A program made the position numbers and the translations under genes. From NCBI GenBank assembly GCA_014773175.1, contig VXCM01001319.1:43168-107167 (forward strand): DNA of 64,000 nt. Direction: 5' to 3'. The stretch is from Lucifuga dentata. Taxonomy: Eukaryota; Chordata; Actinopteri; Ophidiiformes; Bythitidae. Below are positions 52,410-64,000 of this stretch, piece after piece. The notes under the pieces were generated by a model. The model saw only the letters and a list, made by a program, of their open reading frames with translations, had not been told where the DNA came from and searched no databases. How positions within the stretch are numbered: the first letter of the stretch is position 1; each line of letters opens with the position of its first letter.

Positions 52410-55400
52410 TGTCTTCAGGTAATAAAGTCTCAGTCAACATGTGACAGCCTGGTGGACTTTACTACAGACACGGCCAGCTGTTACACCAGACCTCAGTCCA
52501 GTAACCTGGGCAACCAGATTCACCTCTCTGGCTGGTAGAGACGCTGCTTATATCACCTGTGTCACATTTTAAAGTGTCTGCAGAAACTCTCTCTATCCTG
52601 TCTATATCTTGTATTCAAATATTTAAAGACTTGTGTTGCAAGCATATCACCCAAAATGAGGTTAAATAAAAATATCTGTGACATTTTTCAGGACAACAGA
52701 AGACCTAACAGAGCAGATATCGTATAGTAGCAGCAATCATGACTCCAACGCTGAGGTCTGTAATGGCCTGAATGAATCTGAGACCCCTACAGACACGGAA
52801 CACCTACAGGAGGAGGAGATAGAAGAGAGAGAAAAGTGGGAAGGGGACAGTAAGGAAACAGAAAATGGGAGAAATGCAAGAGAGAGAGAGGAAGACAGCA
52901 GCTGTAGGGAAGCTGAGGAAGAGGTTAAAGGAGAGGAAAGAGAGACAGAGGGAAAGCATGATGAGATATGGAGACAGGGGAGTGAGGTGGAAGGACAGAA
53001 GGACAAAGGTAAGGACAATATTGAGGAGGCTTTGAATAATGGAGAAGAGGACCAGAGTTTTGTGGCAAAGGAAGGACAAATAAAGAATGGAGAAATAGGG
53101 GTAACAGCACAGGAAAGGGAGGAGGTGGATATTGAGTTTGGTGAGAGGAGAGAAACTGAGTCAAGAAATGAGGATGAAGAGGAGAAGATTGATGAAGATA
53201 TAGAGAGGAGAGGGAGGGATATTTGGGAGGAGGATGCAGAGGAGAAAGGAAGTAAGGAGACGCTTGGTGAGGAGCGCTCCATTCAGGTGCTGGATGGTCA
53301 CATTGCAGTGGGTAGCGTGCGGTGGCGGCGTGAAGGCGGAGCTAAGGCACCACGAACACCTCGGGTACGAATCACCTAACTCTGACCCAACCCATAATCG
53401 CTTTGAAAGACCATTATCTCTTCAAAGCTACTCCTCCTCTGTCTGTCTGTCTGCAGGAGGACAAAGTCAAACACTACATGACACAGAGCTTTGATTCCGC
53501 CCGCTCGGTCGACAGCTTCCGCATCACGATCACGGAGGAAGTGATGCAGCGCTCGGCAGAAGCCCTGAGTCGCACGGGAATCTCTCAGCGCACTGACACG
53601 CGGGAGACTGTCCGCAGAATGGCTGCCATGAAAACTGAGTGAGTGAACTGTCTTCCTCCCTGTCCCGTCCTGGTATTAAATAGGGAGACATTCACATCTC
53701 ATTGTGTGTTTCTGTCAGTGTTTATCTGCTTAGATTTTTTTGCGTACCTGTATATTCTCGTCCGATCAGGCACCGTGCTCTTTTAAAGACTTTGAAGCTG
53801 TTGTTGGAGCGAGGCGCTGACCCCAACGCGTCCAGAATCCCCATGCCTCTCCTCTTCCTGGCCATTATGTCTGCTGATATCGAGGCTGTCAGGAGCCTGC
53901 TGCTGTGTGGAGCTCGCACCAACATCCCGCTTCCAGCTGAGGTACAGCAAGAAATACTTTACCTCTGCCAAAAAGATTGAGGTCACCGAGGTGTCTGGTA
54001 AGCCTCTCAGTATTCATTTTTACTTCCTGGAAGGATGTTCATTGACAATGTCATCAAAGGTCAATAGTTGGAATTTGAATTGGCCACAAGGGGGCATTTG
54101 TCTCGGTACAGTAGTTACACACTGGTGTACCACTCTAACTTGCTTAAATCAAAGCTCACTGCCAATTTTAATATTTTTGCAGAAGAAGGGTGTGTATCCT
54201 CTGCACATAGCTGCAGCACTACCAGGTCCAGCAGGTCCCAGAATCACAGAGCTTCTGCTGCACGCTATCACTGACCCCGACACACAGGCATGCGACCAGG
54301 ACGAGATCTATGAGCTGGATAAAGTGTGTTCTTTTCCTTTTAGCTTAATCAGAGTCATTAATAGTTTTTGGTACTGTAACTGTTGAGCAGATCACAAGAG
54401 AGTTTGAGTTATGAAAACAACCGTGTTTCATTCTGGGTCCCTTACAGACTTCCATGGGGCCCCAAGAAGCACTGGGCATCAGTGAGACCAAGCCCAGAGG
54501 TGGCCGAACAGCGCTGCATGTGGCCTGCGAGAGGGACAGTGACTACAGAGTCAGTACACACACGCCCACACTCACACCTGCAGTATACACGCCATCACTC
54601 ACAGCTACAGTATACATGCCATCACTCACACCTGCAGCATACACGCCATCACTCACACCTACAGTATACATGCCATCACTCACACCTACAGCATACACGC
54701 CATCACTCACACCTACAGTATACATGCCATCACTCACACCTGCAGTATAAACGCCATCACTCACAGCTACAGAATACACACCATCGCTCACACCTGCAAC
54801 ATACATGCCATCGCTCACACCTGCAACATACATGCTGTTGCTCACATCTGCAGCACACACACCATCGCTCACACCTGCAGCACACACGCCCTCACACGTG
54901 GATCATAATATCAAATGAAAAGTAATACTGGAAATATGGGCTTAATATCTCAAGAGAATAGATGGGTTTAGAACATTGTGTGGCCCTTGCCTTGCGAAAA
55001 ATTTACAAATAACTGCAAGAACTTCAGTCAAAGGAAAAATTAAAAGCCAAAAGCAAAGCTGTAAGGTTTACAGCACTTTGTGATTTGCTGTGTGTGTGTG
55101 TGTGTTTATGTATGTTTGCAGAATGCGAGTGAGGTGATAGCCCTCCTGCTCTCCCACAGAGCCAACACACATCTTCTCTGGAGTGGACATTCCCCTCTGT
55201 CCCTGGCCATAGCTAGTGGCAATGAACTGGTAGCACACATACACATACACACACACATACACACACACCAACATATGCACAAAAAAAATGTAGCCTGGTG
55301 CTGAAGTTGTCCGTTTCAGGCAATGGAGGAGCTGTTGAAAGGAGGTGCAGATCCAAATCTCCCACTTAGCCACAGGGTAGGCAGCGCCCTCTGTGCCCTC

Positions 55401-58588: not shown

Positions 58589-58672
58589 CATCCTCAAGGT
58601 CCTAAATATTTCTTTTTATGTAGTACTTTGAAATTATGATGTTAGACTCCATGGCTACAGATTTTACCTCTA

Positions 58673-59607
58673 TACTACAGGCCAAAGGTTTGAGGCCATC
58701 CTGAGATAAAAAAAAAATCATCAATACACTGTTTGTTTTACAATTTATTGCACAGGAAATCACAAAAATATATAAAATAAATGTAACCAATTAGTTTTTA
58801 AGAAGAATTTGTCAACAAGAGCACATTATGTAGCCACTATGGCTAAAGAAATGCTTTTTAATGAAGGCTTCAGTCTGTATTAGTGCAGCACTCCTGTTGT
58901 GTTCCAACAGGAGTGCTGATGTGTTTTAACATTCTATTCAATAGCTGCTGTCTGCCTTCTCCCACATCATTTTGGATTAGNCTGATGTGTTTTAACATTC
59001 TATTCAATAGCTGCTGTCTGCCTTCTCCCACATCATTTTGGATTAGCGTGCTACACAGTCTGATCATGCTACTGCTCTGCATGTAAAATATGGGAGGTCA
59101 GTAATGCTGTGGGGGGTTTTGGGAGAGAGAGATCTGGAGATTTGGTCCAAGTTAAAGGAATTATGAAGAAAGAATTACCATTCTATCCATCAAAGACATG
59201 CGATTCCATCCGGTTTACAAATTATTGGTCAAAATTTCATTCTTCAACAGGAAACGATCCAAAACCTTCATTAAAATTATGCCAAAATTACATCCATTCA
59301 AAACAGAAGCAAAAGGTTTTGAGAATTATGACTTGGCCANTTATGCCAAAATTACATCCATTCAAAACAGAAGCAAAAGGTTTTGAGAATTATGACTTGG
59401 CCAGAGAGGGTTCCTTTGACAAAACCAAAGTCTGAGCCTGAAATGACTTCAAAGTGCTTTATGTTGGCAAATTATTTTTGAAAACTAATTAGTTACATTT
59501 ATTTTATGTATTTTTGTGATTTCCTGTGCAATAAATTGTAAAACAAACAGTGTATTGACTTTTTTTTTTTAAATCTGGGGGTGGCCTCAAACTTTTGGCC
59601 TGTAGTG
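58673..59607 (+). mobile_element. Tc1-like transposon, second degraded copy
   Basis: Ends 'tactacaggcc' and 'ggcctgtagtg' are inverted repeats with the same inner sequence as the copy at 34933-35721. The plus strand near 59109-59435 encodes a broken transposase fragment. Two N joins with duplicated flanks (58981 and 59340) lie inside, so the true length is shorter. Confidence 0.75.
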
Positions 59608-59893
59608 TGTGTTGTTTCACACATATTATCTTTGTAGTTCTGCATGTAGGGGTGTGGTGAATATGGGTAAACAGCGCAAATGGCATGACTCGGAGTAAAT
59701 GATCTTGTTTTGCAGAATCTGATGACAGCAGCACAGTATGTTGTTGCTGCTGTACCTGACGTCTTGCATCATACCGACGGAAAAGAGGAGTGGAAATAAA
59801 TGGAAGGCATCCCTTCTCACTAGCAAAGACCTGCGCAGCTACTTTGATGGAGTAAACCACAAAAGCAGAGTGAAACGCAGACTTTTAGCTCTA

Positions 59894-59902
59894 ACCGGAA
59901 GT
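59894..59902 (+). promoter_or_regulatory. ETS/GABP-like site upstream of the RNF14-type gene
   Basis: ACCGGAAGT is a full ETS consensus 87 bp before the ATG. A second, AGCGGAAGT, lies at 59949-59957. Paired ETS sites are common in TATA-less promoters of housekeeping genes. Confidence 0.45.
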
Positions 59903-60695
59903 AAACTCAAGCTGTAAACTAACCCAGCGAAGAGTTTGTAGGGCAAGAAGCGGAAGTTTATTGGTGTTATTTGCGAGAAGACGAAAGAATGAGCTCGGAT
60001 TTGGAGGAGCAGGAAGACGAGCTACTGGCTCTCCACAGTATCTTAGGTTCTGAAGAGTTCGTCCGACTTGAGCCGAAACCTGCCGGAGAAATCCGAGTGT
60101 GGGCGGATCTGCCAACAAGCTTTATAGTGGCTCTAAGAGAAGGTAAATAAATCACTAAAAGACAAAAATGGTTCCTTTTACTGATTAGACTACAAACAAC
60201 AGCATGTTGAGCTCATTATTGTCCTGGTTCTGTAACACATCAGGGTTGGTTAAGTGTTTAAAAACTTTTTAATAATGTACAATAAACTTGAATTGTAAAT
60301 TACAGAAGTGAAAAATGAAAACTAACATTAAAATGGACATGAAAATGAGTCATTATACATGATTCAACAGAGACTATATTAACTTATATGTAAATGTCCA
60401 ACCAGAGATGGAAATTTGTCTTAGGTCCCACTTTAGTTACTTTCACACCAAGGTACATAGTTAAATTATGTAGTTATGTTACAACGGGAATCACAGTGTG
60501 CATGTTCAAGAAGCAGGTTTACTGAGTTAAAGTCAACCCACCCCAAATCTGAAAAACTAACTGATTTGAAAAGACCTTTTCCAGCTTTTAATCAGCAGAG
60601 TTATCCATATATCACCATAAATCTACTTCCTGGAAGAGAACTCCAGAAGGTTTGTCATATTGTTTCATTACCATGCATCATGTACTTTGGTCATG

Positions 60696-60696
<1 letters not shown>

Positions 60697-60746
<50 letters not shown>
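60697..60746. repeat. (TG)n run just before exon 2 of the RNF14-type gene
   Basis: Twenty-five TG units ending eight bp before the acceptor. No CA run is seen at the start of this intron. Confidence 0.9.
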
Positions 60747-60747
<1 letters not shown>

Positions 60748-61204
60748 TCCTCAGGTGATACGACGAGGCAGTACGAGATCTCATTCCTTCCACCTCTGCT
60801 TCTGACCTTCGAACTCCCTGAGGACTATCCCTCCTCCTCCCCTCCCTCTTTCAGTCTTACCTGCAGCTGGCTCACACACACACAAGTAAATTCTACAGGG
60901 TGTAATCGAATAGGTCCATGAACAACATTGATCAGAAATACATCCTGGCATTGTGTGTGTGAGAGAGAAACAGATGAGGAAATATAGATGGAATGAAGAT
61001 AAACTGATAGGAGCGGATCGATAAAGATGACGTTCTCTCTTTTTTTCCTCCATCCTCAGCTCTCTGCACTGCAGGCTCATCTTATTGATCTCTACAACAC
61101 CACTGGGGGCAGTGTGGTGCTTTTCTCCTGGGTGCAGTTTCTCAGAGAAGAGGCTCTCTGCTTCCTGGGCATCAATTCTCTGCTGGAGCTCCCCTCTGAT
61201 GAAC

Positions 61205-61428
61205 TAAACATTCTACACACTTCTTCTTCTTTTCCTTTCGGCTTTCCCTTCAGGGGTCACCACAGCGAATCATCTGCCTCCATCTAACCCTATCCTCTGC
61301 CTCCTCTTCTCTCACACCAACTAACTTCATGTCCTCTTTCACTACATCCATAAATCTCCTCTTTGGTCTTCCTCTAGGCCTCCTGCCTGGCAGTTCCAAC
61401 CTCAGCATCCATAAACATTCTACACACT
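61205..61428 (-). mobile_element. Retroposon fragment inserted in an RNF14 exon, with 17-bp target-site duplication
   Basis: The same 17-bp sequence, taaacattctacacact, occurs at 61205-61221 and 61412-61428. Between them, the first bases are a TTC-rich run, which on the minus strand reads as an AAG-type tail after 'agccgaaagg', so the element's 3' end is at the left and it lies antisense. The inner sequence ('ggtcaccacagcgaatcatc', 'atgtcctctttcac') matches a fish LINE-type 3' region I recognise but cannot class. Confidence 0.85.
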
Positions 61429-63930
61429 AGCGGCCATAAACCAAATGCTGTCATTTCTGAGCTCCCAAATAACCATCACACTCTGATGACAGGATCTACA
61501 GGTGATCAAAATAGTGATGCTTCAGGATCGTGTAAAACTGGACTTCTCTTGTCATCCTTGAAAAATCAGGTTCTGATTCTTGCTGATGGACACAATTCTT
61601 CAACCTCAGAATGGAGCAACATTGATCAAAATGTCATATCTGTACAGACAAACGGTATACATAATGTAATAATCTCAGACCCTGACAAAATAGAGCAAAA
61701 CATCTCTAACAATGCAAAAGCCTCCATTTTTAGTGAGGCTGAACAGGTCCTCCAGAGCTCAGAGCAGAAGACTGACCTCCAGAATGATCTGTCCTCAGAT
61801 GCAGGCAAATCTGGGCTTCTGTCTGGCCAGTCTGATCTAAATGTCAAAGCAAAAAGCCATGACCTTTCCGCATCTTTACCACTTCCTTCAGCCTCCTCAG
61901 TCCCATTAGGTCAAAGTGAACAAGCAGCTGCAGACCAGATGCTTTCTCTGCCTTCCCACCTCAGAGAATCCATTCAAAAGAAAGACCAAACCCTCTCCCG
62001 TCTTCTCCCCTTAGTCCCAGCTCAAGCCCTCCTGTCCCAGCTCCTGGTCTACAATGAGGCTCAGAGGCAGAAAATGTTTGCTACCACCATGTTTGACTGC
62101 GGCGTGTGTTTCATGTCCTGGCTCGGCTCAGAGTGTGTGCAGTTGTGGGAGTGTGGCCACGTCTACTGCCGGTCCTGCCTGGCCCAGTTCTGTAAAGTCC
62201 AGATAGCAGAGGGGAATGTCCGAGGGGTCACGTGTCCTCAGCCAGGTTGCAATGCAACCCCAACACCTGCACAGGTAAACACCTGTCTGTCTGCTAGCTA
62301 CCAAATCTTTCTCTACTGATTCATATAGCTCAGAACATTTATTTAAATATTCTACTTAAGAATGATTTTTAGGTATTTTACTCAAGTATTTTCATTTTGG
62401 GAGATTGTATTGATCTGAAAGCTGTAATTAGTAATTACTTTGTAGTAACATTTTGAATGCAGGATTTTTACTTCAGTAAAGAGTTTGAGAATTCTTCCTC
62501 CAGTAGCCATGTTTGTTGGCTGTAGGATGCTGGGCAGCATATCTGCAGTAGAATATATATTTGATATATTTTAATTTATTACTTAAAATAATTTTTGCTC
62601 TGAAAATACCCAACCACTACTTCTCCTTTTGCCCCTCATAGGTGAAGCTGTTGATCGGTGAGGAGCTGTTCAGCCGTTATGACCGCCTCCTGCTGCAGTC
62701 TTCTCTGGACAGTATGGCTGGTGTGTTTCTATGATATATGTATACAGTAATACTGAGGAAGTACTCAAATGTGTTATACATAGTTTGTTTTTTGTTTTTT
62801 TAGTTTTTATTAGTTTACACATACAAAAATAATACAAAATACAAAATGTCAGAAATAAAAAAAAGTAAAAATAAAATGTGAAGGAGAGCTGCAAAAAACT
62901 CTCAAGGGGCTTGAACAGGGCAGCTCTCCATAAGGTGCATGAAAATAATTAAATTATAAGACAATTAAAAGTGGAAAATAAGAAAGTGAAAAACTAAAAA
63001 TAAAAGAATTTGAAATGGTGATCATATCAACATCGCAGAATAGACTACAGATGTGATATTGTTTCTCTGGAAAAGTATGTTTTATAGAATAGTTATTATA
63101 TTGGTGACATCATAGGAGCGTACTGGAATATAGTGTCCAACGTTTCATGCATTTTATGCATTTGATGATGGTGTTTAGTTGTTTGAGTTTTTCAGCAGGA
63201 AACCCAGCTATATACCAGCTTTATAACTGTAGGCCACTGAACCAGTGCCATAGTCAGATTTTAGAAAAAAATTGTTTCATAAGTCCCTCATCGCAACTGG
63301 CTCAGGATTTTTGGCTTCCTAAAAAAGTCTGCAAAATTTTGTAAAAATTTGTGTTTTTTTGCTCACATTTTTAAGCAATTAAATTTCAGAACGCTTGGTT
63401 AAGATACACTAATTAATTTTTCTTCTTTTGCTGTCCAATTTAAAAAATATACAGTCTCAAAAATATTTGAATCACACTTTTAAAAAAAACCAAACATGCC
63501 ATGTGGAAATTTTTAATTATACAATGTAAGCTGCAAAACATGGAGAAGAAATAAGTAGTTGTCCTCAGTACTTAACTGTGGAAAATCATGGAGCCACAGA
63601 ATCTCCATCATGTCTTTTTTTCTTTTCTTTTCTTTTCTCTGTCTCAGATGTGGCGTACTGTCCTCGGCGCTCCTGTGGTTCTGCTGTAATTCTGGAGAAG
63701 GGCAGCAGGGCGGCGATGTGCTCCGTGTGCAGCTACGCTTTCTGTGTTTCCTGCAGAAAGAATTACCATGGAATAGACAACTGCCAAGCAAAGAAGAACA
63801 TGAAAAAACAGGAAGAAGAAGAAGACACACAGCACCCCTTTGCAAACCTACCACAGACACAAGGTAGGAAGAAAGGAATATCTACTCCTTTTAGAGGTTG
63901 GTAACATGATATTTTATGATAACAGTCTAA

Positions 63931-64000
63931 TACTAGAAATGCAGCCTCAAGGGGGCACAAGCCAGTGTCCACCTTGTGCCGGTCCCAAGCCCGAATAAAT
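63931..64000. repeat. Probable start of a dispersed repeat at the window edge
   Basis: The block 'gggggcacaagccagtg' and 'ccggtcccaagcccg' followed by 'aataaat' recalls a common teleost repeat. It is cut by the window end, so the class is not assigned. Confidence 0.3.

Follow-up and report, generated by a model that had tools for sequence, protein, structure and literature searches.

A recent insertion of a long interspersed nuclear element (LINE) has probably created a null or strongly reduced allele of an RNF14-like E3 ligase gene in Lucifuga dentata, the Cuban blind cave brotula. The gene lies near the right-hand edge of the window, that is, the whole 64-kb stretch of DNA analysed here, which is the right-hand part of a 107,167-bp contig in a genome assembly of 598 Mb and 8189 contigs; the protein predicted in the window is 100% identical, over the match, to the L. 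dentata GenBank protein LDENG_00272200. Its third exon is split by the 190-bp 3′-end of a LINE, inserted antisense to the gene between the RWD and RING1-like coding regions and bounded by a 17-bp target-site duplication, and from the in-frame stops so introduced we infer that the mRNA would be degraded and the ligase lost. As the contig ends at window position 64000, before RING2, what we say of the gene applies to five exons.

The insert and its LINE family

The insertion and the stop codon it introduces are as follows:

61205..61221, plus strand: first copy of the target-site duplication, an exact 17-bp repeat (TAAACATTCTACACACT)
61222..61411, minus strand (antisense to the gene): 5′-truncated LINE 3′-end, comprising the last codons of a reverse transcriptase open reading frame (ORF), TGA, a short 3′ untranslated region (UTR) and a (GAA)n tail
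61412..61428, plus strand: second copy of the target-site duplication, an exact 17-bp repeat (TAAACATTCTACACACT)
61285..61287, plus strand: first in-frame stop, TAA, at codon 171

The initial annotation had proposed an antisense retroposon with a clean target-site duplication, a description borne out by the exact repeat (17 of 17 bp) and by near-identical copies elsewhere in the genome. Read antisense to the gene, the insert encodes the last 53 residues of the ORF, followed by TGA, about 30 nt and the (GAA)n tail. When the whole window was scanned for 17-mers repeated at a spacing of 150–300 bp, ten were found, nine of them in a tandem array at 54.57–54.77 kb and the tenth being TAAACATTCTACACACT. 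After the RWD domain comes a conserved LELPSDE block, and the insert sits a few residues past it, where a poorly conserved linker begins, as judged from an alignment of 14 chosen homologues that include the locus's own GenBank protein. Counting one copy of the repeat, 207 bp were added, a multiple of three, and the splice model together with Pfam and alignment evidence agrees with the annotated placement between RWD and RING1 with the downstream frame kept. A literature search by sequence string returned no paper.

The insert has matches at four other places in the genome. Three of these equal it at 100% over 190 bp, whereas one reaches 99% over 189 bp; clear 13–16 bp duplications accompany three of the four (that of L001 is unclear). 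A 27-mer from the insert has 1145 matches genome-wide at up to one mismatch, against none for the reversed control. Among the thirty of these 1145 that were read, 17 show no difference from the insert over 185 bp and six more show one (in an ungapped comparison, where some of the larger counts stem from indels). These copies have GAA-type 3′-ends and differ in their 5′ truncation points, the nearest of which lies 33 bp and the farthest at least 1500 bp upstream of the probe; the 5′-ends of L018 (rearranged) and of L021 and L033 (runs of N) could not be placed. Two copies, L019 and L025, retain an uninterrupted reverse transcriptase ORF of 546 residues to the stop (PF00078, E = 5.7e-38 for L019), and the longest copy read, L038, holds a 649-aa frame. 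The insert is thus a 5′-truncated LINE from a very homogeneous family, one that was probably active until recently and whose clade we take to be RTE-like.

A discrete 190-bp short interspersed nuclear element had been suggested by five places (that in the window and the four others) with a common 5′-end, and is ruled out by the 1145 matches and their many truncation points. Exact genome matches with a non-A base at the 5′ junction of the insert number exactly five and are these same five places, so most likely the DNA search, which skips common words, keyed on the rare junction word; five copies sharing one truncation point seem to us, informally, unremarkable among some 1145 copies with many such points. 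The five matches with a non-A base before GGATGCTGAGG (L064–L068) all have T there, and the longer copies that were read have A.

It might be asked whether a repeat read was simply misplaced into a unique exon during assembly. The window does contain four single-N joins, at 513, 6204, 58981 and 59340, each with an identical 63–66 nt on both sides, which are probably false tandem duplications produced by assembler overlaps. However, there is no N anywhere in 59341–64000, so that the insert join is not marked as a scaffold gap, a misjoin is not expected to yield a 17-bp target duplication in the pattern of an insertion, and three of the four other near-identical copies show duplications of their own; we therefore regard an artefact as highly improbable. 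Separately, the inner structure of LINE copy L018 resembles the single-N overlap joins of the window.

The RNF14-like gene and its predicted products

The gene model comprises five exons, to which we add the start codon used by the GenBank model:

59989..60142, plus strand: exon 1, with the start codon and the first part of RWD (splice model, homologue alignment, Pfam)
60755..60885, plus strand: exon 2, the middle of RWD, ending in phase 0 after residue 95 (splice model, alignment)
61060..62274, plus strand: exon 3, with the end of RWD, the variable linker and RING1, split by the insert (splice model, alignment, Pfam)
62642..62720, plus strand: exon 4 (splice model, alignment)
63648..63863, plus strand: exon 5, with the IBR; 137 bp separate its end from the contig end, which falls short of the RING2 exons (splice model, alignment, Pfam)
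61486..61488, plus strand: ATG that starts GenBank model LDENG_00272200, in the poor context CTG ATG A

All junctions are GT/AG and the exons join in a single frame, giving the order RWD, long variable linker, RING1-like finger and IBR. The RWD domain (PF05773, residues 6–126, E = 3.3e-22) is complete before the premature stop, the IBR (PF01485, E = 2.9e-13) is over its cut-off, and the RING1-like finger scores below it (PF13639, 20.8 bits against a cut-off of 27.3) in a stretch that aligns with homologues. An additional exon at about 60586–60648 (SYPYITINLLPGREL) was considered and is unnecessary: exon 1 continues in frame straight into exon 2, and the two align to homologues. Apart from the insert, the five exons contain no stop or frameshift, and the RING1 and IBR cysteines and histidines are retained in the alignment, as judged by eye. 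To that extent the initial annotation was right in seeing no decay elsewhere in the gene, but the statement is too broad for a contig that ends before RING2.

Proteins passing the homologue search numbered 233, and among the best 120 of these, the entries that carry a name are for the most part RNF14-like proteins of fish, with that of Toxotes jaculatrix the best full-length match listed. A protein of Genypterus blacodes, a fish of the same order as Lucifuga, has 73% identity across 31% of the query. The linker varies. Five pairs of fish database models were chosen, three pairing models of the same species and two pairing models of related species, and in each pair one member is without parts of the linker and keeps the frame, which may reflect real splicing or may be an artefact of prediction.

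Comparison with relatives, which the initial annotation had proposed for the empty site, is consistent with an exon free of the insert. When the insert and one repeat copy are removed in a script, the frame is open. Of the 135 proteins compared, 86 can be aligned with the joined flanks through the junction (34 of them gap-free), and 125 gave any match at all. The 136 fetched proteins have no five-residue word in common with the reading of the insert except one from the conserved RWD motif FLPPLL, another in P0080 and one in P0114.

In the filled state, the annotated premature TAA is confirmed. The insert adds 69 codons with three in-frame stops, upstream of which the frame stays open for 170 aa. 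The first stop precedes the catalytic domains, and the exon junctions at 62274 and beyond lie after it. Under the established rule of nonsense-mediated decay, a stop far upstream of later exon junctions leads to decay of the mRNA, and decay is expected here because the stop is so placed. We suggest the following course of events. A copy of a high-copy, very homogeneous LINE was reverse-transcribed into exon 3 in antisense orientation; only the last ~190 bp were inserted, and a target-site duplication of 17 bp arose. The insert places three in-frame stops between RWD and RING1, and the mRNA would be subject to nonsense-mediated decay or yield at most a 170-aa RWD stub. A canonical rnf14 is present elsewhere in the genome and may make such a loss tolerable.

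The initial annotation offered three outcomes, namely a null allele, a short RWD-only protein of 170 codons, or RING and IBR translation restarting at 61486. The three stops ahead of the catalytic domains point to the first. An RWD-only protein might compete for GCN1 as a natural dominant negative, and it can be said for it that the RWD is whole before the stop and that a few RWD-only entries exist for other fish (for example P0122–P0124); its message, though, is the one for which decay is expected. An RBR-only protein (one with the RING1-IBR-RING2 part alone) starting at 61486 would depend on an ATG in poor context that follows a 170-codon frame, and the GenBank model that uses this ATG reads into an intron. 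Both products are unlikely, and taken together we consider them very unlikely as an account of the locus. The GenBank model itself spans 61486–63904, leaves out the RWD exons and continues past exon 5 into the following intron; it looks like a prediction made without transcript support. Beginning after the insert, it hides the broken gene, and scans based on annotation would miss the damage.

Two neighbouring regions deserve mention. Just upstream of the RNF14-like gene, the stretch at 58655–59610 is bounded by inverted ends (ACTACAGGCCAAAGGTTTGAGGCC … GGCCTCAAACTTTTGGCCTGTAGTG, found by eye), and its interior resembles a Tc1-like transposase remnant. The tandem array at 54543–54902 contains 17-mers such as CACTCACACCTGCAGTA that recur at 162-bp spacing and has open frames on both strands; pieces near it look like parts of what we take to be an ankyrin- and MYND-domain gene. 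The window had no match in an Rfam scan at gathering cut-offs.

Weighing the probable null allele

Several points weigh against a null allele, or against a general one. Decay of the mRNA and loss of the protein are deduced from sequence; the assembly is a draft from one fish, so that an empty allele may exist and the insertion may be fixed, polymorphic or private; one homologue of the 135, P0028, gives a BLAST alignment that spans the filled site; two strong acceptor-like sites within the insert could allow splicing past the stops; and the 17 matches of a search of the assembly with the Genypterus protein include none to a RING2 exon of this gene, so that the gene was possibly damaged before the insertion. 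The P0028 alignment pairs the ordinary linker of that fish with the reading of the insert at low similarity, and is not a copy of the insert. The other points are taken up below.

A simple weight matrix, derived from general consensus frequencies, was used to score splice sites. The best donor upstream of the insert in exon 3 reaches –1.6 bits, against 2.1 to 5.2 bits for the five native donors, and for want of an adequate upstream donor in exon 3 we do not favour the idea that the insert is spliced out as an internal intron. The initial annotation, which regarded removal by splicing as not obvious, was sound as regards poor donors but incomplete, as two strong acceptor-like sites come with the insert:

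61234..61254, plus strand: pyrimidine tract derived from the antisense tail, then TTCAG/G, with the exon starting at 61254 (8.2 bits, against 8.4 for the native exon 3 acceptor)
61358..61378, plus strand: CTCTAG/G, with the exon starting at 61378, in frame with exon 2 and after the last stop (6.9 bits)

Native acceptors score 1.7, 8.4, 7.5 and 10.8 bits, and a score of 8 bits is reached by 0.55%, and one of 6 bits by 1.5%, of the 4154 AG sites on the plus strand of the window. It is conceivable, then, that the insert serves as a new 3′ splice site, with exon 2 joined to 61378, the first part of exon 3 skipped together with every stop, and an in-frame RBR ligase made without residues 96–149. 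Both sites fall within the native range, the 61378 site lies past the last stop in phase 0 with exon 2, and the short members of the five fish model pairs would be a parallel, with their frame-keeping loss of parts of the linker. On the other hand, the native exon 3 acceptor is equally strong and comes first, the stretch that would be lost is strongly conserved in the 13 aligned homologues that cover it, the matrix rests on general consensus frequencies, and the short fish models may themselves be artefacts. We think such splicing distinctly unlikely. The product would lose 31 of the 121 Pfam RWD positions (the last quarter) and the conserved stretch after them, and we give little credence to the fuller proposal that the antisense LINE end supplies the 3′ splice site for an in-frame ligase that, with the end of RWD lost, may no longer bind GCN1. 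If it were true, the insertion would rewire the gene instead of killing it. Excision through inverted repeats (SOS splicing) was also considered: two 10-nt inverted pairs were found, one with its first arm upstream of the insert and its second within it, the other wholly downstream, and neither flanks the insert.

Alternatively, the gene may already have been dead or truncated at its 3′-end, with RING2 lost, and the LINE hit a pseudogene. The 17 matches to the Genypterus protein are the RNF14-like locus, canonical rnf14 on another contig (C4) and distant RBR-like loci; neither an empty allele nor a second RNF14-like copy is among them. When the assembly was searched again, this time with the C-terminal 105 residues of a Thunnus protein, it gave 15 matches, likewise without a RING2 exon of the RNF14-like gene; its best matches are to canonical rnf14 and other loci at 34–47% (the top two being canonical rnf14, at 34% and 42%, and the others ranging over 25–47%). 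Yet the contig stops right after exon 5, and an assembly gap, which the absence of RING2 may reflect, explains this equally well; moreover, five exons otherwise free of stops and frameshifts, with RING1 and IBR cysteines and histidines kept, argue against prior damage. A prior pseudogene is therefore unlikely. The same searches answer, as far as the assembly extends, the question of another intact rnf14 raised in the initial annotation: canonical rnf14 is present on C4, where exon pieces for RWD, RING1, IBR and RING2 are open (as pieces, short of a complete splice model).

The age of the insertion is loosely bounded. With no differences over the 185-bp core and 34 bp of duplication, the 95% upper bound is about 1.4 million generations (hand arithmetic, u = 1e-8 per generation), so that the earlier description of a very young allele is consistent with the data, but only weakly bounded. 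The mutation rate is that assumed in the L. dentata genome paper (PMC7826195), which also gives a generation time of 4 years and a split of L. dentata from L. gibarensis at 4.1 My. At 4 years per generation the bound becomes about 5.5 My, which exceeds the split, and the insertion cannot be placed before or after it.

The cave lineage and known systems

RNF14, a relative of the RNF14-like ligase, is an E3 ligase acting in ribosome stalling. If the insertion is fixed, the RNF14-like ligase would be dispensable in L. dentata while canonical rnf14 remains; if it is polymorphic, it would be good evidence for very recent LINE movement. No paper joining Lucifuga with RNF14 was found in a full-text literature search. 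The published annotated draft genome, from one L. dentata individual, is accompanied by an analysis of vision, circadian and pigmentation genes that scores stops, frameshifts and losses of start, stop and splice sites, and names an L. dentata transcriptome, GIAU01 (PMC7826195). The present locus lies beyond those gene classes and offers a clean candidate for loss of function in a cave lineage. Like the L. dentata pseudogenes in that work (Policarpo et al., PMC7826195), it would represent loss of function in the same lineage with few defects per gene; unlike them, it falls outside the gene sets studied, and the words transposable and retrotransposon are absent from the main text of that paper.

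Compared with RNF14, an RWD plus RING1-IBR-RING2 ligase, the locus has the same order of RWD, RING1-like finger and IBR, and is similar to the canonical rnf14 on C4. It differs in being a separate fish RNF14-like gene with a long variable linker, whose L. dentata copy is broken and whose RING2 is absent from the assembly searches.

LINEs of the RTE clade have a reverse transcriptase ORF that ends near the 3′-end, a very short 3′ UTR, a tail of short repeats in place of a long poly(A), and heavy 5′ truncation. The present LINE shares the position of the ORF end, the short 3′ UTR, the short-repeat tail and the truncation. Its duplications, at 13–17 bp in the four clear cases, are longer than the 10–12 bp peak given for RTE elements in PMC4245944. 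Finally, as in known 5′-truncated LINE insertions in coding exons, we find a truncated 3′-end, a tail, a target-site duplication, a broken frame and near-identical copies in the genome. This would be gene loss of a clean but ordinary kind, by a type of insertion already known and with no difference from it in kind; here, the antisense tail and ORF end happen to carry two strong acceptor-like sites with them.
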